Source of the DNA: Opitutia bacterium
GTDB lineage: Bacteria; Verrucomicrobiota; Verrucomicrobiia; Opitutales; UBA953
Assembly (NCBI GenBank): GCA_003569245.1
Contig: BGOM01000023.1
Location: 1 to 64,000 of the forward strand
Direction: 5' to 3'
Length of the DNA stretch: 64,000 nt
The translations under genes and the position numbers were made by a program. This document shows positions 21,703 to 33,999 of this stretch, in pieces. The notes beneath the pieces are model-generated. The model had not been told where the DNA came from and searched no databases. It was given only the letters and a program-made list of their open reading frames with translations. Each line of letters starts with the position of its first letter. The stretch's first letter is position 1.

Positions 21703-23910
21703 ATGGAAGCCCCGGGCCCGACCAAGACCACGCACCAAGCCGACACCCTCCGGCTGGAGCTGGCGCAGGCTCAGGCGGAGACCGACCGCCTGAAGCATGC
21801 GGCCCTCGATCTCCGCAAATTGGAGGATGCCCGCCGCCGCCCGACGCACGCGTGGACGGAGGCCGCCGAACGGACCTTGGCCGAGTGGGAACGGGCAACG
21901 GAAGCCGCCGAGAAGCGCGCCGCCGCCGGCTTCGTCACCGTGACCTGTGTCGCCGCGACCATCCGCCAGGCGGAGGCGATGCTCGACCTGGCCGAGTCGA
22001 CCGGGGCGCTCAAAAACATCCCGGGCGCCTCGCCCAAAGACCTGCTGGTCCTGCGCCTCGCGGGCGCGACGGAAGACTCCCCGCTGGAACCGGCGGCTCG
22101 CCGCGCCTTCTTCGGACAGGCGGATACCTTCGAACTGCACGCGACCATGCGCGGGGCGAAGTCACGTCAACCCGGCCTCCGGGTGGAACGGGTCTGCGCT
22201 TTGCGCAGCAAAGGCCTGCTGGTGGTTCGCAAAGCCGTGCAAGCCTACGCGCCGGGCGAGGCCGCCCCGCCCGCCGACCCGACGGAGCGACAGCTCGAGG
22301 ACGGCGACCCCGTCTTCCTCACGGGGCGGATCGCGCGTGGCCACCTCACCCGCCGACTCATCGCCCTCCGTCGCTTGCGCGAACATTGGCAAGCCTCGCA
22401 CCTGCCGCTGCTGCAGTTGTTCAACCCCGAAGCGCGGGGCTGGGGCGAAGCCCAGATGGTCAACCAAGGTGACCAGGACGCCGATTGGCGCCTGCTGACC
22501 GGGGCGACGTCCCTGACGACCGCCGGCCGTGCGTTCGTCCGCAAGGCGATCGGCACGACCGACTTCACCTTGCTCGAAGCCCCCGCCGGTCCGGCCCGCC
22601 GTACCGCGGTGCTGGAACTGATCCTGCAGGCCATCGCGCGTGGGCAACGCCTGCTGGTCGTCGCCGCTGACGCCCCCGAACTCGACGAACTGCTGGCCGC
22701 CGGCGCGGCGCTCTCCGGCTGGGCGGAGCAGGTCGCGGCGGTCCGGCTCACCGACCCCTGCGAACCGACCGCGCCCGCCGCCCAGGCCTTCGACCTCGAC
22801 CGCCAGGCGGCGCTCCTGACCGGCGCCGTCGCTCCGCTGAGCCGCGGCCGCCGTCCCCGGGAGGTCGCCTCCACCCTCCTGCTCGACACCTGTAATCTCG
22901 TCGGCCTGCCCCTCACGGCGCTCGGCGCGCATCCCTCCTTCCGTGCGGCCGCCCTCACCCGGGATCCGGCGGACTTCGACCAGCTGATCGTGCTCGGGGC
23001 CGAACGACTGGGCTTCGCCGATTTCCTGGTGCCCGCGGTACACGCGCGTCGCTGGATCCTGGTCAGCGACCCGAACGCGCCCACCACCGACACCGACCTC
23101 GATGAGCTGGCGGAGCAGGTGGTGGTCGAGGCCTCGCGGGTACGGCTGCTCGACGAGCTCCAAGCCGAGCTGGCCTTCAAGGCGTGCGTGGGCAAGGACG
23201 GTTCGGCTGACGACGAGGATTCCGATATCCCCGACGCCCACGGACGCCGCAAGGTCCTGCTGGTCCTCGACGCCCCGGTCGACGAGGCCCGTTCGCTCGC
23301 GACCGCCCAAGCGTACCTGCGTCAGCGTCAACTGCAGACGGCGACGGTGGCGACCGGCGAAGTCGCCGCGTTCGACCCGGCGGCGCTGAGCCCCGACCTC
23401 AACGTGCTGATCTGCGCCCGCACCGCGTTGACCGGGACCGAGCTGGCGCTTCGCCTGCCGCCGGAATTCCGCCTGATCGTCGGTCACCTCGAACCCGAAC
23501 TGCTGGAACCGCTCGCCCGCCGCGTGAAGTTACCCAAGGCCCGGGGTAAGGCCTCCGCGACCACCCGGGGCAAACCGCGTCCGCTCATCTTCCTCGACTG
23601 GCAACGCCGCTGCGCCGCCAACCTGCAAGGCCTCTACGACTGCCGGCGCCCGGGCCAGGAAGAAGAACGTAGCCGCCACATCCGGGCGCTCTTGCTCGAC
23701 CTCAAGACCCTGCACCCCTTCGAGAAGCCGCTGTGGGAGCCGCAAGCCTTGCTGCGATTGAAGGAGCAGGAGCTCTGCGCGATCTTCGAGGCGCTCCAGA
23801 ACGGCGTCCGCGAGAGCAACGCCCCCGACCGCTCCGAAAGCGTCCATCACTCCGGCCTGCCGCGCCCCCTCGGACTGTCGTCTCGCCTCGAACGCCTCCC
23901 CGGCGCCTGA
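21703..23910 (+). CDS. Catalytically degenerate SF1 (COG1112/UPF1-like) helicase homologue
   Basis: A 735-residue cytoplasmic protein. Residues 1-75 are probably coiled coil. Residues 262-460 line up with the first RecA lobe of COG1112-type helicases: AGRAFVRKAIGTTDFTLLE precedes Walker A, DTCNLV corresponds to the usual D(S/T)ANLV segment, and FADFLVPAVHARRWILVSDP to the segment after motif II. The catalytic residues are gone. Walker A reads EAPAGPARRT (292-301) where EGPPGSGKTT is expected. Motif II reads VLGAER (430-435) in place of a DEAS-type box. Motif III has lost the GDPRQL pattern. No motif V or VI was found in the C-terminal 250 residues. The family assignment and expected motifs are from memory of the family. 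It is first in a three-gene operon. Confidence 0.7.
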   Translation: MEAPGPTKTTHQADTLRLELAQAQAETDRLKHAALDLRKLEDARRRPTHAWTEAAERTLAEWERATEAAEKRAAAGFVTVTCVAATIRQAEAMLDLAESTGALKNIPGASPKDLLVLRLAGATEDSPLEPAARRAFFGQADTFELHATMRGAKSRQPGLRVERVCALRSKGLLVVRKAVQAYAPGEAAPPADPTERQLEDGDPVFLTGRIARGHLTRRLIALRRLREHWQASHLPLLQLFNPEARGWGEAQMVNQGDQDADWRLLTGATSLTTAGRAFVRKAIGTTDFTLLEAPAGPARRTAVLELILQAIARGQRLLVVAADAPELDELLAAGAALSGWAEQVAAVRLTDPCEPTAPAAQAFDLDRQAALLTGAVAPLSRGRRPREVASTLLLDTCNLVGLPLTALGAHPSFRAAALTRDPADFDQLIVLGAERLGFADFLVPAVHARRWILVSDPNAPTTDTDLDELAEQVVVEASRVRLLDELQAELAFKACVGKDGSADDEDSDIPDAHGRRKVLLVLDAPVDEARSLATAQAYLRQRQLQTATVATGEVAAFDPAALSPDLNVLICARTALTGTELALRLPPEFRLIVGHLEPELLEPLARRVKLPKARGKASATTRGKPRPLIFLDWQRRCAANLQGLYDCRRPGQEEERSRHIRALLLDLKTLHPFEKPLWEPQALLRLKEQELCAIFEALQNGVRESNAPDRSESVHHSGLPRPLGLSSRLERLPGA

Positions 23911-23913
23911 CCC

Positions 23914-25110
23914 ATGGCCCTCCCTCCCCTCATCCTCCGCCGCCCCATCGCCGTGCGCTTCGTCGACGCGATGGCGGTCGTGCGCACCTCGGGTGAGTCG
24001 GCCGAATGGCCGGCGTTGCTGCGGCTGGCTGCCGACTCGGAACGGCAAGAGGGCGGACTCACCGCCGAGGCCGCACGCGCGCTGCTGCCCTTGCCGCTCC
24101 CGGCGGCCCGCGCCCTGCTCCGCCAAGGCGTCGAGCTCGGGATGCTCAGCCGCGACGGTGAGAAGTTCCGCCTGACCGCGCTGGGTCGCGCCTGCCTCCG
24201 TCAGGACGTGGGCATGGACGGACATCATGGCCTGTTCCGCTTCGCCGTGACGGACGAGCCCTTGCTCGCCGGCCGCCAGCTGCTGCATGTCGAGGAGCGT
24301 CGCGACCTCACCGACCTCGAGGAGACGACGCTGGAAGAAGCGGCGGATGCCCTGCACACCGAGCCGGATGCGTTCTTCAGCTCGGTGGCCCAGCGCGGCC
24401 TGCTCTTCTCGGTCCTCCGCACCTCCGCGCAGATGCGACCGGTGCCGCGCAAACAGGATCTCTCCTTGATGATGGAGGTCGAGATCCGCCCCGGCCAGGA
24501 CGGCCCCTTCAACCTCCGCCTGACCGGCCAGTGGCCCGCGGGCAAAGGCACGGGGCGCGACCGCACCGGCGGCGCCATCGACGTCCGCCTGACGTCCGCG
24601 CAGCCGCGTCGTCCCGACCAAGGCTACGCCGACCTTTTGCAGATGGCGGCCGCGGCAAGCGGTCAGGACTTCCTCGCCTCCCCCGGCGGCCAGGCTGACC
24701 TCTCCACGGGTTACCCGACGCGTTTCGCCGACGCGCCCACGGAGGCCCGCGTGCATTTCCGCCTGCGCGTGCCGAAGATTCCCAAGGTGCAGTTCAAGGT
24801 GCCGGGGCAGTTCGATCTCGGGACGTTCGAGGTGGAGGCTTTCGAGGTGCCGATCACCCCGGCGGCCGGCGACGAGGATCTCTGGGGCCAGTGGCTGCAA
24901 TGCCACTTGCTGGGGCCGGACAAGTCGCCGGGTGGCCCCGCCCGCGCCGGCGAGGCGGTGCGTCAACGCCTCCCTTCCTACCAACCGCGCAGCGGAGCCG
25001 AACTGGCCCGCCTCGCCCTCGGCCGCAGCCCGCTCGGCCGGGATGTCCCGCAACGCGCCACCTTGCTCGAGGCGCATGACCTGCTCCTGTGGGAGCCGAC
25101 CGACCGATGA
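23914..25110 (+). CDS. Unknown protein with possible winged-helix domain, middle gene of pseudoenzyme operon
   Basis: A 398-residue protein that starts three bases after the helicase-like gene and overlaps the next gene by four (ATGA). Residues 60-95 (AARALLRQGVELGMLSRDGE, then KFRLTALGRACLRQD) resemble a winged-helix fold. A beta-rich C-terminal half (for example KVQFKVPGQFDLGTFEVEAF) follows. No signal peptide, membrane segment or catalytic motif is visible, and the protein is not recognised. The tight coupling suggests a stoichiometric complex with its neighbours. Confidence 0.6.
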   Translation: MALPPLILRRPIAVRFVDAMAVVRTSGESAEWPALLRLAADSERQEGGLTAEAARALLPLPLPAARALLRQGVELGMLSRDGEKFRLTALGRACLRQDVGMDGHHGLFRFAVTDEPLLAGRQLLHVEERRDLTDLEETTLEEAADALHTEPDAFFSSVAQRGLLFSVLRTSAQMRPVPRKQDLSLMMEVEIRPGQDGPFNLRLTGQWPAGKGTGRDRTGGAIDVRLTSAQPRRPDQGYADLLQMAAAASGQDFLASPGGQADLSTGYPTRFADAPTEARVHFRLRVPKIPKVQFKVPGQFDLGTFEVEAFEVPITPAAGDEDLWGQWLQCHLLGPDKSPGGPARAGEAVRQRLPSYQPRSGAELARLALGRSPLGRDVPQRATLLEAHDLLLWEPTDR

Positions 25111-26591
25111 TCCCCGCGCTGCGCAAGACGTCCGAGCCCTTCCATTACCACGAGCGGGTGATCGGTGATGTCTGGCGGAAACTCGACGCCCCGGAGCCGG
25201 TAGCCGGCCAGGCTTGGTCGACCGTGCTCGCCGCCCTCGACTCCGCCCGGCACACGCTGCACATCGCGACGCCGCTTCTCGGCGCGCCCGCCTTCAACGA
25301 GGCCGTCGTGCGCGCGCTGAGCCAGCACCGCGTCCGCGTCTACATCCTGACGACCGATGGGTTGGCGCCTCAGTTCGACGCGCTTAAGAAGCAGGCTCAC
25401 GCCGAGGCGTTGGCGAAGCTTTCCGCGGCCGGCGCGATCCTGCAGAGTTCCGCCCAGGTCCACGCCCAGTTCATCGTCATCGACGCCGGAGAGCCGACGG
25501 CCCAGGCCCTCCTCTGTCCGGCCGGCCTGCCGACGCCCGAGCAGCCGGCCCCGGTCCATCGTCTGCCCCAACACGCACGCGCGCTGCAGGAGGTCTTCGC
25601 GCTCGCCTGGTGGCGACTCTCGGTGGAACGGCTGACCAAGCAGGGACCCGCGAAAGCCGAGCCGCAGCCAAATTACCCGCTGGACCGGCCGATCGAAGGC
25701 TTGGCGGTCAATCTCCAGTTCAGCGCAAAGCCCAAGGCCGAGACGCCCGCGCGTCTGGAAATCACGCCGCGGATCAAGACCTTGCTCGAGCCGGCCCAGA
25801 CCCGCCTCTGGTGCGCGGTACCTCAGCCCGAGACCCAGGCCTTCCTCATCGAAGCGCTCCTCGCCAAGGCCACCGCCGGCGCCGATGTGCGCCTGCTGAC
25901 CTCGCACCGCCCCGTCGCGGTCGAGACCCTGCGCAAGCTCGCGCTCGGCGGCGTCAAGGTCCGCCTCGGCGCGGATGTCCGCGCCACCTCGCTGATCGCC
26001 GACAGCCAGGCGCTGCTCCTCGCCGTCGGCACGGGCGCGAAGGACGAAAAGCCCGGCCTCGAGCTCGCCCCGCACCTGGTCGGCGAAAGCGCCGATGCCT
26101 TGGCCGCGAGCTTCGAGACCACCTGGTCCGAGGCCCTGATGGAACTCCACCCTCAGGCCAAGCTCGGCGCCCTGCGCGGCGCCTACCAGAAGCTCGCGAC
26201 CGGTCCGCTCGGCCCTTGGCTACCGCCGCCCGTGGAGTCCAAACTCGTCGTCCTGGAGACCCCTTGGATCGCGGCCTCGGCGACGGACCTGGCGAATAGC
26301 CCGCCCCATAAGGAAGCCAAGGACGACCCCGCCTGCGGGGCGCTCACGCTGGTCTACCAATGGACCGTGGTGCCGCCCAAGCTACCCGCGGACGTGAAGG
26401 AGGAGTTCATGACGGCCGAGGAAGCCGCCAAGCTCGGTCTGCCAGCGACCCGGGCGCCGTTCGACCCCCGTCGCTTCAGCCGCGGCAAGGAGCTGTTCCT
26501 CCTGGCCGAACGCAACGACCCGATCTACCTCGGCTGGCTCCGACAGGTCGCCGTCGAACTCAAGGCCCGCGTGGTGATCCCGCGCGCCTGA
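25107..26591 (+). CDS. Phospholipase-D-like protein lacking both HKD active sites
   Basis: The start ATGATCCCC (25107) overlaps the upstream stop codon as ATGA, implying translational coupling. The 494-residue protein has two PLD-like halves. In the first (about 35-145) the active-site position reads VHAQFIVIDAG (H119-A-Q121), so the catalytic Lys of HxK is Gln. In the second (about 225-340) VRATSLIADSQALLLAVG occupies the place of HAKLLIAD, with His and Lys both replaced (R292, T294). PLD-fold proteins in such operons are usually nucleases; this one is predicted to be inactive and may bind nucleic acid or scaffold. Family placement is from fold pattern, not a search. Confidence 0.65.
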   Translation: MIPALRKTSEPFHYHERVIGDVWRKLDAPEPVAGQAWSTVLAALDSARHTLHIATPLLGAPAFNEAVVRALSQHRVRVYILTTDGLAPQFDALKKQAHAEALAKLSAAGAILQSSAQVHAQFIVIDAGEPTAQALLCPAGLPTPEQPAPVHRLPQHARALQEVFALAWWRLSVERLTKQGPAKAEPQPNYPLDRPIEGLAVNLQFSAKPKAETPARLEITPRIKTLLEPAQTRLWCAVPQPETQAFLIEALLAKATAGADVRLLTSHRPVAVETLRKLALGGVKVRLGADVRATSLIADSQALLLAVGTGAKDEKPGLELAPHLVGESADALAASFETTWSEALMELHPQAKLGALRGAYQKLATGPLGPWLPPPVESKLVVLETPWIAASATDLANSPPHKEAKDDPACGALTLVYQWTVVPPKLPADVKEEFMTAEEAAKLGLPATRAPFDPRRFSRGKELFLLAERNDPIYLGWLRQVAVELKARVVIPRA

Positions 26592-28912: not shown

Positions 28913-30325
28913 CTATCTCACGCCGATAACATCCTTCGGCAGGACGAGCGCTTCCTGGATTCCATCCACCATCGGTCGCGGGCTCGGCATACCATGGCCG
29001 CAAATAAACACGACATGGGGTCGCATGGCGCGGATTTTAAACCACCTCGCAGCCTCGGCGAAATCCTTGGTTGTTCCGTCACCCAGGAAACACATCACTC
29101 CAACGTTAAACAAGGAGGTGGCATGCCCTTGCTCCGCCGCCTTTCGCCACCACTTGAACGCTTCGACCTGATCCTTCGGCACGCCTTCGCCAGCGTGATA
29201 ACACTTCCCCAAGACGTATTGGGCCTGCGCATGCCCGTTTTCCGCCGCCTTGCGAAACCACTTCACCGCTTCGACGAGGTTCTTAGGAACACCAATCATC
29301 GAACTAACAACAAGCTGATCAGAAATGATCCTGTGCATCTCGGTTTTGCCGCGACGGTAATAGCACCCCAGATTGTATTGAGCCTTGGCGAAACCTTGGT
29401 CAGCAGCCTTGCCATACCACTTGACGACTTCGTCATGGTCATACGCGATGTCATGGCTACGCCATTCATAAAAGTAACCCAGAAGAAATTGGGCGGGAGC
29501 ATAACCACCTTGGGCTGACCTGCGGTACCACCTAATGGCTTCATCCGGATCCGATGCCGCGCCTTCGCCGTTTTCATGACACCATCCCAGCTCATACTGG
29601 GCATGGGCGTCACCTCCCTCGGCGGCCTTAAGCCATGAAGACGCCGGCGGGGCTTGATTGGACGGGGAGAAGCCGGCGCGCGCAGGACATTCCTCCCTCG
29701 GGAAATATCGTTCCACAGTCTCCCTCTGCAGAGCGAGGTTGAAGAACCACTTAGCGGCTTCAGGGCAATCCTTCGGCACACCATCGCCTGCTTCAAGGAT
29801 GAATCCGAGGTGACGCTGCGCCTTCGCCTCACCCTTGGCGGCGGCCAGACGAAGCCACCTGACCGCCTCGACCGAATCCTTCGCCACGCCCTCACCTTTG
29901 TAATAACAATAGCCGAGATTAGATTGCGCATAGACATCGCCCTGCTCGGCGGCCTTGCGGAACCACCTCACCGCCTCCGCCTTGTCCTGCGCGAGGATTC
30001 GGCCCTGATAAAGAAGACAGCCCATCAGATCTTGTGCTTGTGCGTACCCTTGCGCGGCCGATTTGCGGATCCAAAGCAGGCCTTTGGCTTCATCGGCATC
30101 CAGATTCGAATAAAAGTCGCCGTAGAGATACAAGAAGCCGAGGGAAAACTGCGCCTCGGCGTCACCTCGCTCGGCTTTCTGACGATGAAACTCGGTCTTT
30201 TCGTTTTCAGCCGAAAACCCGAGGACGACGCCATCGTTTTGTCGAACCTGTGGAAACGCTTTTGAGGCAAAAGAAACAAAAGCAATCAGAACTAAAAAAG
30301 CCTGAACGAAGGGGTTGGTTCGCAT
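28913..30325 (-). CDS. Sel1-repeat secreted protein
   Basis: The start MRTNPFVQAFLVLIAFVSFA (30325) gives a signal peptide; an upstream ATG at 30340 adds five residues. Most of the 470 residues are Sel1-like repeats of about 36 residues (for example QSNLGYCYYKGEGVAKDSV and EAVRWLRLAAAKGEAKAQRH), at least eight copies. Sel1 repeats form helical solenoids that mediate protein-protein contacts, often at the cell surface. Base composition is visibly lower in GC than in the surrounding genes. It lies 80 bases from the tRNA and is one of three Sel1 genes in this stretch. Confidence 0.85.
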   Translation of the reverse strand: MRTNPFVQAFLVLIAFVSFASKAFPQVRQNDGVVLGFSAENEKTEFHRQKAERGDAEAQFSLGFLYLYGDFYSNLDADEAKGLLWIRKSAAQGYAQAQDLMGCLLYQGRILAQDKAEAVRWFRKAAEQGDVYAQSNLGYCYYKGEGVAKDSVEAVRWLRLAAAKGEAKAQRHLGFILEAGDGVPKDCPEAAKWFFNLALQRETVERYFPREECPARAGFSPSNQAPPASSWLKAAEGGDAHAQYELGWCHENGEGAASDPDEAIRWYRRSAQGGYAPAQFLLGYFYEWRSHDIAYDHDEVVKWYGKAADQGFAKAQYNLGCYYRRGKTEMHRIISDQLVVSSMIGVPKNLVEAVKWFRKAAENGHAQAQYVLGKCYHAGEGVPKDQVEAFKWWRKAAEQGHATSLFNVGVMCFLGDGTTKDFAEAARWFKIRAMRPHVVFICGHGMPSPRPMVDGIQEALVLPKDVIGVR

Positions 30326-30640
30326 AAAGTCCGAGACCAAAATAACGCGCTTTGATTGTTCGGCAAAGAGAAAGTCGCGACATGATCAAAGTCAGCAACC
30401 TTCACCTTCTCCGGGAACGGTAATTACCCGCGGATGACGCACGGGAAGATTGTGACATCCCAGGCCTGACGGCGCCAGCGCACAGGTTAAACCCTGCTCT
30501 CATACCCTGACACCTTCCGCAGTTTTTAACTACCTTCTTGCTCTTTAAGTCTAAGGCGCGCAACTCACGGCGCCTCTCGCCAATCGACCTATTTTCAAGG
30601 GAGGCAGCAGACTTGAGGCGAAACCTACCGGCTGATTTCC
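30326..30640. other. Non-coding gap upstream of the first Sel1 gene
   Basis: About 315 bases between the second Sel1 gene's stop and the first Sel1 gene's start, both on the minus strand. It is lower in GC than the rest of the window. No convincing ORF, RNA, repeat or promoter pair was seen. It probably contains the promoter of the 28913-30325 gene. Confidence 0.4.
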
Positions 30641-31648
30641 TCAGCGCAGATGCTTCGGACGTCCGCGTTCCGCCTCGTTCCGGGCGATGATCTTCCGGTA
30701 GTGCTGCACGCGTTCCTGCGCAAGGGCCAGCTCCGACGGGGTGAGGCTGGCCTGCAGGTCGGCTAAGGCTTGGACGGCCTTGGCGTCACGCGGACCTGCC
30801 AACAGCCGAAGCGTACAGGCTTCCACCAGGTCCTTAGGGACGCCTTCGCCTCGCTGATAAGCGCCGGCAAGCATGTCCTGCGCGCTGGCGGAGCCTTGCT
30901 CAGCGGCCTTGCGCCACCAGCTGGCGGCCAGGATGGGGTCCTTGGCCACGCCGAGACCATAGCCATAGCAAAGTCCTAGTCTGGCTTGCCCCGTGGCCAC
31001 CCCTTGGTCGGCCACCTTACGCCACAGGGCGAAGGCGGCCGGCAGGTCCTTGGCGACACCCTTGCCGGTAAAAAAGCGCATGCCGAGTTCTTCCTGCGCG
31101 GAGGCTTCGCCCTGCTCGGCAGCCTTGCGATACCAGGCCACGGCTTGTTCATCCCCGCCGGGCACGAGACCTTGGGCATAAGCCTCGCCCAGGAAATACT
31201 GCGCCCTCGCTTCCCCCATCTCGGCGGCGCGCCGCCAGAGGGCGACGGCCTCGGCGGAGTCGGCACGCACGCCCTCGCCACGTTGGTAGCAGGAGCCGAG
31301 GTTGACCATGGCCCGGGGGTTGCCCAGTTCCACCGCCTTGCGGTACCACGAGACCGCGGCGGCATGATCCTGCGGGACGCCCTCGCCGTTGCGGTAAGCG
31401 TGGGCCAGGATCATCTGGGCATCGGAGTCCTTGACCGCCGCACGGCGCAACCAAAGGAACGCTTTTTCGTAATCCTGTTCGACGCCTTGCCCTACGAAAT
31501 AACAGAACCCCAGCATGGACTGTCCTTGCGCCTCTCCGGCTTCGGCCCGGAGCCGACACTTCTCGAAATGCGCCACCTCGGCGGGGGTCACTCCGGCGCA
31601 AGCCCACGCGCTCAAGAGAAGCAAGAAGCTACGGACAAGGTAACGCAT
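30641..31648 (-). CDS. Sel1-repeat secreted protein
   Basis: A 335-residue protein with a signal peptide (MRYLVRSFLLLLSAWACAG). About seven Sel1-like repeats follow (for example QSMLGFCYFVGQGVEQDYEK and QEELGMRFFTGKGVAKDLPA), then a short charged C-terminal helix. It is a probable scaffold in the periplasm or at the surface. The partner is unknown. Confidence 0.87.
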   Translation of the reverse strand: MRYLVRSFLLLLSAWACAGVTPAEVAHFEKCRLRAEAGEAQGQSMLGFCYFVGQGVEQDYEKAFLWLRRAAVKDSDAQMILAHAYRNGEGVPQDHAAAVSWYRKAVELGNPRAMVNLGSCYQRGEGVRADSAEAVALWRRAAEMGEARAQYFLGEAYAQGLVPGGDEQAVAWYRKAAEQGEASAQEELGMRFFTGKGVAKDLPAAFALWRKVADQGVATGQARLGLCYGYGLGVAKDPILAASWWRKAAEQGSASAQDMLAGAYQRGEGVPKDLVEACTLRLLAGPRDAKAVQALADLQASLTPSELALAQERVQHYRKIIARNEAERGRPKHLR

Positions 31649-31699
31649 GCAGCAATTAAACTGAACAAACCGACCGCTAGGTCAACCCCTTGCGAATCC

Positions 31700-32905
31700 T
31701 CACCCCGCCGACCGGATGCGCTCCCAGAACGGGAAATACCCACGGGTGGCGTGCGGGAAGAGCGTCGTATCCCAAACCCGACGGCGCCAGTGCACCGTGA
31801 TGCCGGCCTTGGCCAGAGCGGCCTCGATGGCTAGGGCCTCCGTCAACCAAGGGCCGATAAAGGGACGGTACGCTACCACTGCGTAGAGCTTTCGAGTCTG
31901 GACCCATTCCACTATCGCCGTGGCAAGATCAGACGACTCGGTGGCGACAACTTCAGTCCCAAAGTGCTTACCAACCCGCGAGGCACCTTCGCCCAAGGCA
32001 GCACGCGTCCACTCCGCGACCTTAGGCGACCAGCCCGCAGCGGTGGCGATACCGGCCGGCCAGGAGGCGTTGATGGACTCGAAACGAAGGCCCGCGAGTT
32101 CGCCCCGCTCGACGGCGAGGTCTTCCGGGTGTAACCAAAGCCCGACCCTTCCCTGCTCGAGGGCCGCCGCGGCCGGAGCCTCGCTCCAGGCCGGAACTTT
32201 GGGCAGCGGCTCCTCGGTGATCGGGAAAGGCTGCGCAGCCAATCGGCCGGCATCTGGCACGTGACGGCCCACGGTGTAGTGGGCGATGTTGTCGGCCCTC
32301 GCCACGTAGGTCTTACCCGGGGTCTGCAGCCCGGCGACCCAGCGCCAGGAGAGCGTGTTACTGGCCACATCGCCATCCAGCAGGTGCTCATAGAAGAAAG
32401 CCGCCCCAAGTTCCCAGGGGAGCTTCAACGTGAAGATCCAGATCGAGGCGAACCACATGCGGGCGTGGTTATGCAGATAACCGGAGGCGACCAGCTCCTT
32501 GGCCCAGTCGTCGAAACCTGCGATGCCCGTCCGGCCGGCACAGGCGGCCACCCAGAGCTCCTGCTGCTCACCCGACAAGCCAGCCCGGAGGCGCGGCACC
32601 GACTCCTGCCAGCGCGACCAGGCCGCCGGGCGCTGCTCGAGCCAGCCTTTCCAGTAAGTACGCCAGTAAACCTCTTGGACGAACTTCTCGACCTCCGGGA
32701 AAGACCACCGCTCCCGGACGGCGGCCACCACCTCCTCTTCGAGAATCAACCGCTTCTGCAACCATGGGGAAACCCGACCGACATGATCGTTGCCGGGGCG
32801 GACGAAGTTCCGCTCAGCCGCATACCTCCCGGCGACCGGCAGAAAAGCCTCAAGCCGCGCCAAGGCGGCGGCACGGGTCGGAGTGAATTCCGGGTCGAAG
32901 GACAT
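31700..32905 (-). CDS. Photolyase/cryptochrome-like FAD-binding protein with the usual N-terminal domain missing
   Basis: A 401-residue cytoplasmic protein. Residues 1-230 match the FAD-binding helical domain of photolyases and cryptochromes: SGYLHNHARMWFASIWIFTL and DGDVASNTLSWRWVAGLQ are the conserved FAD-contact segments. In classical photolyases this domain is C-terminal to an antenna-binding alpha/beta domain; here it is at the N-terminus. The C-terminal ~170 residues look alpha/beta (VVAYRPFIGPWLTEALAIEA, then DTTLFPHATRGYFPFWERI). This is a reordered or truncated architecture. It may repair DNA or sense blue light. It lies between two Sel1-repeat genes. Confidence 0.75.
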   Translation of the reverse strand: MSFDPEFTPTRAAALARLEAFLPVAGRYAAERNFVRPGNDHVGRVSPWLQKRLILEEEVVAAVRERWSFPEVEKFVQEVYWRTYWKGWLEQRPAAWSRWQESVPRLRAGLSGEQQELWVAACAGRTGIAGFDDWAKELVASGYLHNHARMWFASIWIFTLKLPWELGAAFFYEHLLDGDVASNTLSWRWVAGLQTPGKTYVARADNIAHYTVGRHVPDAGRLAAQPFPITEEPLPKVPAWSEAPAAAALEQGRVGLWLHPEDLAVERGELAGLRFESINASWPAGIATAAGWSPKVAEWTRAALGEGASRVGKHFGTEVVATESSDLATAIVEWVQTRKLYAVVAYRPFIGPWLTEALAIEAALAKAGITVHWRRRVWDTTLFPHATRGYFPFWERIRSAG

Positions 32906-32965
32906 CCCCAGACCTAAACGGAACCGCCGCCCGGCGCAAATGCGCGGTACCTATCAAAGGGAGTC

Positions 32966-33999
32966 CTAGTAAAAGACATTGAACTTGCGGGTAAGATTGC
33001 GTTCGGCGACACGTGCCTGCACTTCCTCCTCCAACTTCTTGGCGCGAGCCTTGGCTCGCTCACGCGCCACCTCCGTCATCCCGGCATTCACCCGGGCGAG
33101 CAAATCACGCGCAGAGGGAGTAGATCGGGCCGCTAGAGTCAGGTATGCGCAGCCCTCGACTTCATCCTTGGGAAGTTTCATCAACCCGGTCGCGTAGCAC
33201 AACCCGAGCAAATTCTGCCCCCGGGGATCCCCCTGTTCCGCGGCCTTGCGCATCAAAGCGATGACGGTCTCTTCATCGCCGCCGACGCCTTCGCCGGAGG
33301 CATAACAGTCGGCTAGTTGCACCTGGGCTTCGACTAAGCCCTGATCCGCGGACTTACGGTACCAAGATACCGCTTGGGCCAAGTCGCGTTTCACCCCGAC
33401 ACCATCGGCATAGAATTTCGCGAGGTTATACTGGGAGACAGGCTCTCCCTGTTCCGCCGCTTTCCTGATCCAGACAACCGATTGGGCGATGTCTTGATCG
33501 AGAAGGTCAGTGCCAAGCATGGACTGCGCATCCGCCAAACCCTTCTCGGCCGAGCCCCTGATGAGGGCGGACGCCTGGCTGGAGTCCTTGACGACCCCGA
33601 AACCATTGCGATGACAAACCCCTAGGTAGTACTGCGCATGGCTATCGCCCCCTGCGACGGCCTTCCTATACCAAGAAACCGCTTGGACCGGATCGCTGGC
33701 CACACCCTCTCCGATGGCGAAGCAAGCCCCGAGGTCGAACTGCGCCCGCGGCAATCCCTTGTCTGCCGCCTTGCGGAACCAGAACACCGCCTGAACCGGA
33801 TTCCGCTCCACCCCGACGCCCTTCAAAAGCAGATTCCAAGGTCGCACTGTGCCTCGGGAAGACCCTGTTGGGCCTTCGACTGGATCGCGGCGAACTTTTG
33901 CCGCTCCTCGGTCGTAGTGCCCGCATAAACGACCAAGGTCGACAGCGACCCCAAAACCAAGATACAGGAAAGCAACCAACAGTGGCGTCGGGTAGGCAT
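32966..33999 (-). CDS. Sel1-repeat secreted protein, frameshifted in this sequence
   Basis: The start MPTRRHCWLLSCILVLGSLS (33999) gives a signal peptide, then EERQKFAAIQSKAQQGLPEA. The frame breaks near 33835 at CDLGICF, where LKGVGVERNPVQAVFWFRKA should continue. Adding one T to the local T run restores a single frame of about 344 residues, exactly one base longer than the sequence here. About seven Sel1 repeats follow. Its paralogues at 28913 and 30641 are intact, which favours a sequence error. Confidence 0.8.

Follow-up and report, generated by a model that had tools for sequence, protein, structure and literature searches.

Catalytic losses under purifying selection in a helicase, putative winged-helix and PLD operon of an Opitutia genus

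Described helicase–PLD systems and the operon

Mokosh combines a Ser/Thr kinase with a COG1112 helicase and a phospholipase D (PLD) protein, and a sequence-only reading had linked to it a three-gene operon, here called A, B and C, in a 64,000-nucleotide stretch (the window) of contig BGOM01000023.1 from a freshwater Opitutia bacterium. Our favored reading, held with moderate confidence, is that the operon descends from a Upf1-like helicase, winged-helix and tandem-PLD module, has lost catalysis but been long retained, and now acts as a noncatalytic nucleic-acid-binding scaffold, sequestering agent or regulator. Its ancestor would be a module of the kind linked to antivirus defense. The computations show that each gene shares descent with an intact counterpart, with gene order unchanged, and that all three are under purifying selection. 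They also show that A has lost Walker A, motif II and, going by the alignment, RecA2, that C has lost its second PLD site and the greater part of its first, and that the operon has no gene for a CARF regulator. The claim of a pseudoenzyme version of a helicase–PLD module stands, the P-loop change and the loss of the second PLD site being common to all seven alignable copies. So does the tight coupling that had been noticed, with three bases between A and B and an ATGA overlap between B and C, and the same order is found in eight genomes. The three genes are as follows:

21703..23910, plus strand: gene A, 735 residues, Upf1-like superfamily 1 (SF1) pseudohelicase
23914..25110, plus strand: gene B, 398 residues, putative winged-helix protein
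25107..26591, plus strand: gene C, 494 residues, degenerate tandem PLD protein

The Mokosh link itself did not hold up. C has a distant PLD relationship to MkoB (7.8e-6), whereas A has no PADLOC match, no kinase domain was found in A, B or C at E ≤ 1, and the active sites of the operon are lost. We rejected Mokosh as the parent, as the similarity is at domain level only and the closest intact relatives that we found are four-gene plasmid systems, in which no kinase was detected by Pfam; the helicase core of an intact relative matches MkoA at 8.4e-82. For DISARM, the intact relative of C, P0011, is nearest to DrmC among the PLD families of PADLOC and NCBIfam, whereas C had no DrmC match in PADLOC at E ≤ 1 and no other DISARM family matched A, B or C.

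A closer parallel in layout comes from CoCoNuT systems of Types II and III, for which the excerpt of PMC11090510 used here describes CnuH helicases that typically have winged helix-turn-helix (wHTH) effector genes downstream, a modeled wHTH–helicase contact, and a Type III-C effector with two PLD domains. The likeness to CnuH and CnuE is that of a Upf1-like helicase upstream of a wHTH protein tied to an effector (PMC11090510, same excerpt). We found this order in the operon, though split over two genes and with a wHTH call that comes from a modest model. The operon differs in having wHTH and PLD as separate genes and in its lost catalytic residues, whereas the excerpt of PMC11090510 describes helicase activity coupled to nucleases. 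A tblastn search with the McrB protein P0007 found no match in the window or in loci L026, L017, L018, L019 and L022; McrC and the rest of the genome were not searched.

Intact plasmid counterparts and the lost catalytic sites

A tblastn search of 72,556 plasmids with A returned two records, Vibrio aerogenes pLMG19650 (26.8% over 66% of A, E 8e-16) and Pontibrevibacter nitratireducens unnamed4 (E 3e-9), and a third copy, on Vibrio rumoiensis plasmid 2, was found using the intact helicase P0004. In all three plasmids (loci L069, L070 and L071), one of which is typed as conjugative, the cluster is annotated as a helicase, a hypothetical protein of 365-369 residues, a double PLD protein of 506-510 residues and a sigma54-interacting regulator. 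The fourth product is a PADLOC RtcR_PspF1 CARF-AAA-HTH protein in V. aerogenes (P0012, 4.5e-209) and RtcR-like in Pontibrevibacter (P0016, 1.3e-30), while that of V. rumoiensis is assigned by annotation only. Profile alignment with hhalign paired A, B and C with the plasmid products one to one and in the same order, at E 1.4e-28 (470 columns, residues 195-721 of A against 180-679 of 908, 28% identity in the aligned part), 3.9e-6 and 3.3e-16. Their scores of 227, 54 and 125 lie far above the best of 40 column shuffles (31, 23 and 29), reversed profiles (19, 13 and 14) and six wrong pairings (13-20), so the unnamed second plasmid gene is taken as a homologue of B. These clusters are the closest intact relatives found, and no system name for them was found in the family libraries used or among the literature matches listed.

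Operon and plasmid clusters agree in gene order, in the homology of all three products, in the accessory region of A and in part of the C-terminal region of C. The plasmid versions differ in retaining, across the three aligned copies, Walker A, DEAS, GDPKQL, RecA2 and both HKD sites, and in a fourth, RtcR-like gene that the window operon lacks. Two CARF domains used as tblastn queries had no match in the window, nor in eight loci taken from seven relatives (some are partial contigs), while the control L069 was found; across 55 genomes of the genus, all listed matches to P0012 (54 genomes) start at residue 150 or later, so they hit only its AAA part. Two further observations concern the plasmids: the V. 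aerogenes copy adjoins cas2 and an unusually long cas1 gene (3012 bases), and a Klebsiella plasmid (CP052287, near 45984) carries part of a B-type gene that is not annotated, with 55% coverage and 79% identity to the Vibrio gene.

The features of A on which the comparison turns are these:

22576..22605, plus strand: Walker A remnant EAPAGPARRT (residues 292-301), GPPGSGKTT in intact relatives
22990..23007, plus strand: motif II remnant VLGAER (residues 430-435), DEAS in intact relatives
23083..23907, plus strand: accessory region, lying between RecA1 and RecA2 in the intact plasmid relatives and at the C-terminus here
23179..23220, plus strand: conserved block KACVGKDGSA(D/E)DED, mostly gap in intact relatives, a candidate new functional site
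within 21703..23910, plus strand: N-terminus, helical with a probable OB/stalk region, from the model and our reading

A is homologous to Upf1-like SF1 helicases over RecA1 (motif I, Ia, II and III region) and matched SMUBP-2 at E 4.8e-6 in a sequence search of solved structures; library matches were to TIGR00376 IGHMBP2 helicases (2.1e-7, residues 269-333) and AAA_11 (0.017), both below cut-off, and to PLuB_AAA (5.6e-4). The joint alignment omits G026 from A and G014 from C, both of which are partial. In all seven aligned copies of A an intact Walker A and DExx are missing. The P-loop reads A-x-x-G-x-A-R with a variable residue after it, its lysine changed to arginine and two of its three glycines to alanine, and these changes are probably ancestral because they are common to both clades. 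The Asp-Glu of motif II is replaced by Leu or Val followed by Gly, Ser or Asp (Val-Asp in G021). Intact helicases carry GPPGSGKTT (GPAGSGKTT in P0004), DEAS and GDPxQL, followed in RecA2 by QHRM, TVDxxQG and NRxNVAxTRA, and since alignment to them places the remnants at the true motif positions, the sequence-only reading had identified both correctly. Nor were intact motifs displaced: a pattern check for Walker A, DE(A/S/T)x, GDxxQ and HxK(x)4D elsewhere in A, B and C of eight genomes, some partial, found only HAKFLVVD at the first site of C in G151, and all positive controls (four intact helicases and three intact PLD proteins) matched.

A feature absent from the earlier reading is the apparent loss of RecA2. 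The homologous part of A stops at residue 721, equivalent to 679 of 908 in P0009 and just before RecA2 (683-877, Pfam), and all nine RecA2 positions checked are gaps in the seven alignable proteins. Two RecA2 domains used as tblastn queries found none in the window or the same eight loci, and the positive control L069 was recovered. By alignment, A appears to end before RecA2 and to lack the entire domain; motifs V and VI were not found in it, with a caveat from the Foldseek alignment. Foldseek with the AlphaFold2 model of A (seven-sequence alignment, predicted local distance difference test (pLDDT) 60.3) retrieved Ighmbp2, Sen1, Upf1, SETX and Dna2, with a best E of 4.6e-8 (Ighmbp2) and a template modeling (TM) score of about 0.2. 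Residues 515-600 were considered as a degenerate RecA2 and dropped, as the stretch falls between RecA1 and RecA2 of the plasmid helicases; some doubt from Foldseek remains.

C likewise retains its fold, with a PLDc_2 match above cut-off (2.7e-9), weak similarity to MkoB and MkoC, and a match to Nuc (1byr) at 0.0019. Its features are the following:

25461..25484, plus strand: first HKD remnant HAQFIVID (HAQ at residues 119-121), HAKAVVID in the intact relative
25980..26003, plus strand: second HKD remnant RATSLIAD (RAT at residues 292-294), HAKAIVVD in the intact relative
26160..26585, plus strand: conserved C-terminal region KDDP...PPKLPAD...PRRFxRGKE, the first part of which aligns to intact relatives

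The claim that both HxK sites are replaced is right for the window (HAQ and RAT, which alignment to the intact relatives places at the true sites) and needs refining across the copies. At the second site His and Lys are gone and Asp is retained in 7/7, so that two HxK(x)4D sites occur in no copy; at the first, H119 and D126 are present in all seven and Lys in one (HAKFLVVD in G151), where alone the site is complete. The asparagine after each site is also gone. His and Asp in every copy and HAK in G151 indicate that the first site was lost piecemeal, and by the alignment its lysine would have been lost more than once, unless regained in G151.

These residues bear on two alternatives in which the operon still has chemistry. 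It is very unlikely, in our view, that the proteins remain active in an unusual way, with R299 standing in for the P-loop lysine and C pairing single His sites between subunits. The arginine is fixed in 7/7, the first-site His and Asp are as constant, and G151 retains HAK; Nuc-type PLDs, moreover, have one site per subunit. Against this, A has neither RecA2 nor the acidic pair of motif II, and C has lost its conserved Asn residues along with His and Lys at the second PLD site. Somewhat less improbable, though still an unlikely account, is a neofunctionalized enzyme with a new active site, for example at the KACVGKDGSADDED block of A or in the conserved C-terminal region of C, in which the first-site His and Asp are used chemically. 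Cys, Lys and acidic residues are invariant across the two clades, whose overall identity is about 47%, as are H119 and D126 of C in the seven copies, but family searches and sequence searches of solved structures gave no enzyme match at these places, and the conservation may be structural.

B had no significant Pfam, NCBIfam or PADLOC family, the best match being 0.071 and one wHTH family reaching 0.098. Its predicted winged-helix domain lies at one place:

24004..24204, plus strand: predicted winged-helix domain of B, AlphaFold2 pLDDT 82-90 per block of 10 residues

The model as a whole (seven-sequence alignment) has a pLDDT of 58.2. Foldseek aligned its N-terminal part with 2h09, IdeR, MntR, MepR and SelB (probability 1.00, root-mean-square deviation 1.6-2.0 Å over 57-71 residues); no winged-helix match had an E-value below 0.048, several fit less well, and an unrelated methyltransferase ranked first, at probability 0.08. 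The wHTH assignment is thus a modest one, drawn from the model.

Selection, distribution and chromosomal setting

The sequence-only reading had proposed a look for conserved synteny and purifying selection, and had named a ratio of nonsynonymous to synonymous divergence (dN/dS) near 1 as the mark of simple decay. The A-B-C order recurs in eight genomes of one genus, and within clades the Nei-Gojobori dN/dS is 0.07-0.28 for A, 0.04-0.22 for B and 0.10-0.25 for C, ranges that cover 8 of 28 possible pairs per gene. Against G014, the closest relative of the window operon, differences at codon positions 1/2/3 number 25/9/113 in A, 8/2/65 in B and 15/8/49 in C, of which only 684 bases are contained in the G014 contig. 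Shifted sense frames gave ratios of at least 1.5; one antisense frame also had a ratio under 1 (0.15-0.25), which is expected of a frame that has its third positions in common with the sense frame. Between the window and G151 every region of A is constrained (0.07-0.22), the stretch 461-525 most, and the stretches used from all eight genomes hold no internal stops (for A of G021, the larger piece only). A slow decay, in which a defense module inactivated in the ancestor of the genus is eroding, draws on the catalytic losses, the patchy presence, a frameshift in G021 and the higher dN/dS across clades. Low within-clade dN/dS (0.04-0.28), the retained overlap and the shared motif losses argue that the operon is not simply decaying, and with no internal stops either we regard this as the least probable of the accounts.

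Between clades the divergence of the operon is roughly two to four times that of its neighbors, as dN between the window and G315 is 0.47-0.55 for the three genes and 0.25, 0.13 and 0.24 for the flanking major facilitator superfamily (MFS) transporter, racemase and channel genes (dN/dS 0.40, 0.18 and 0.43). Such rates would suit a decoy or dominant-negative guard, in which a dead, all-pseudoenzyme, ATP-independent complex with a halved motor poisons or mops up intact plasmid- or phage-borne components or their targets, allowing the host to tolerate or to block mobile elements that bear the intact system. This is an improbable explanation. The intact relatives found are on plasmids, one of the three typed as conjugative, and noncatalytic regions are retained while catalysis is lost. 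Searches with A, B and C, however, found no intact version in the genus, of 50,697 phage records none matched A and just one matched the intact helicase P0013, in part, so no opponent is in sight; and cross-assembly is doubtful, because intact and dead versions are only 28% identical over the aligned part of A.

The operon is present in 8 of 79 genomes of the family, the window's own included, all within one genus of which 55 genomes were sampled. B and C each match these eight, and A matches the same eight and G311 (9/79), where the match is a distant helicase. P0001 gave six matches in 57 relatives and P0003 two in 273 genomes of the order, every match inside the genus. The profile of C against 387 genomes of the phylum gave its own genome and three weak, partial PLD matches (G262, G632 and G521), which we took as generic PLD proteins; a match on contig 114 of G009 (E 2.5e-4) was discarded, as it sits, by our reading, in an unrelated large protein. 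A pattern-limited scan of named genomes returned seven loci, all from the relatives already found (titled Opitutae, Opitutia, Opitutus or Verrucomicrobiota). No matches were obtained with P0005 in the 387 phylum genomes or plasmids, with P0004 in the phylum genomes (limit 1e-20) or viral contigs, with P0003 in plasmids, with A3 in viral contigs (pattern-limited search), or with the Vibrio plasmid genes in E. coli genomes (near DNA search); the empty phylum-genome searches with P0005 and P0004 show little, because no genome known to match was included. Outside the genus there is nothing convincing.

With A, B and C as queries, the only intact candidate in the 79 family genomes was a distant, McrB-linked module of G311 (61% complete), in which the A-B-C operon was not found, so the proposal of a regulator of an active copy has no candidate there; the plasmid counterparts of A and C were not themselves used as queries against the genus. 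This module (L024, G311:C208, 14-8118) comprises an intact SF1 helicase, a wHTH-like protein, a PLD protein and an EVE-McrB gene, with a HEC-07-like gene upstream. It shares the genus and, by our reading, the first three protein types, and differs in its intact helicase motifs, its McrB partner and its being less closely related to A, B and C than the plasmid products are. As a direct parent it was rejected: its helicase matches at E 1.6e-15, but B reaches 0.048 and C 7e-4, and the plasmid system fits far better.

A-B-C is contiguous in the window, G151, G315, G009 and G021, cut by a contig end in G014 and G026, and spread over two contigs in G017. The B-C ATGA overlap occurs in 8/8 genomes and an A-B ATGA overlap in 5/8. 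Flanking genes in the window encode an MFS transporter, a mandelate-racemase-type enzyme, an HGSNAT/DUF5009-type membrane protein, a Sel1-repeat protein and an ion channel, with three small genes that had no family match in the library scan, and there is no evident defense island. The window and G315 have the MFS-racemase pair upstream of A and a K-channel gene downstream in common, whereas G009, G017 and G021 have another long minus-strand frame upstream of A instead. The channel gene directly follows C, convergently, in G315, G009, G021 and G026; in the window and in G151 it is separated from C by Sel1 repeats and a few small genes, together with a tRNA in the window. As we read them, the shared flanks suggest a single ancestral location with vertical inheritance and losses, and horizontal steps may still have occurred. 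All 16 operon-less genomes with both racemase and channel genes have them on separate contigs, and no clean empty site was found in the stretches fetched from operon-less genomes (matches of at least 60 residues kept); as these assemblies are fragmented, racemase–channel adjacency is still possible there. A promoter scan of the operon region gave 0 sigma-70 sites and terminators at chance level. We also observed a run of Sel1-repeat paralogues in the window (28913-33856, minus strand), between operon and channel gene and not at the corresponding place in G315, and in G009 a very long minus-strand frame immediately upstream of A (locus L019, 1791-8009), with counterparts in G017 and G021.

Proposed working and significance

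Selection preserves all three genes despite the lost active sites, so the operon has probably taken on a new role for which catalysis is not required. We suggest that A, B and C may still form a complex like that of an intact helicase, wHTH protein and nuclease, by analogy with the CnuH and wHTH-effector proteins in the excerpt of PMC11090510, and that this complex would act without ATP hydrolysis or cutting. It should not pump, because RecA2, the P-loop lysine and motif II are gone, and it should not cut, because the second PLD site is gone. Most likely it would bind some nucleic-acid form, with the probable OB/stalk region of A and B's winged helix making the contacts, and what selection retains would be binding, whether of nucleic acid, of one another or of a further partner.

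Several points weigh against this scaffold, sequestering or regulatory role. Both the complex and its nucleic-acid binding are inferred, and the OB/stalk region is our own reading. The models are of low confidence (pLDDT about 60 for A and 58 for B, with TM to helicases only about 0.2), and the Foldseek alignments span two-RecA proteins, so that what we call the accessory region may be a decayed RecA2 instead of a domain of its own. At the first PLD site His and Asp persist throughout, and Lys in G151. Across clades (window against G315) the dN/dS of A, B and C rises to 0.52-0.56, with the dN given above. The module is patchy (8/55 genomes of the genus, many of these assemblies incomplete), and in G021 a frameshift (L022, 10935-11225), either real or an assembly error, breaks gene A in two.

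Single dead enzymes that selection maintains are a familiar finding. The parts of this operon are likewise already known, and a conserved, inactivated helicase–wHTH–PLD module was not found in the literature among the matches listed. Here one module has lost catalysis in both its motor and its nuclease, while its genes have remained in order and coupled. Following the operon also led to an intact plasmid cluster that carries an RtcR-like CARF regulator and for which we found no name. If the complex works as proposed, the assembled noncatalytic part of such systems would be valuable by itself, and the operon would offer a natural, ATP-free version in which recognition may be studied separately from cutting.

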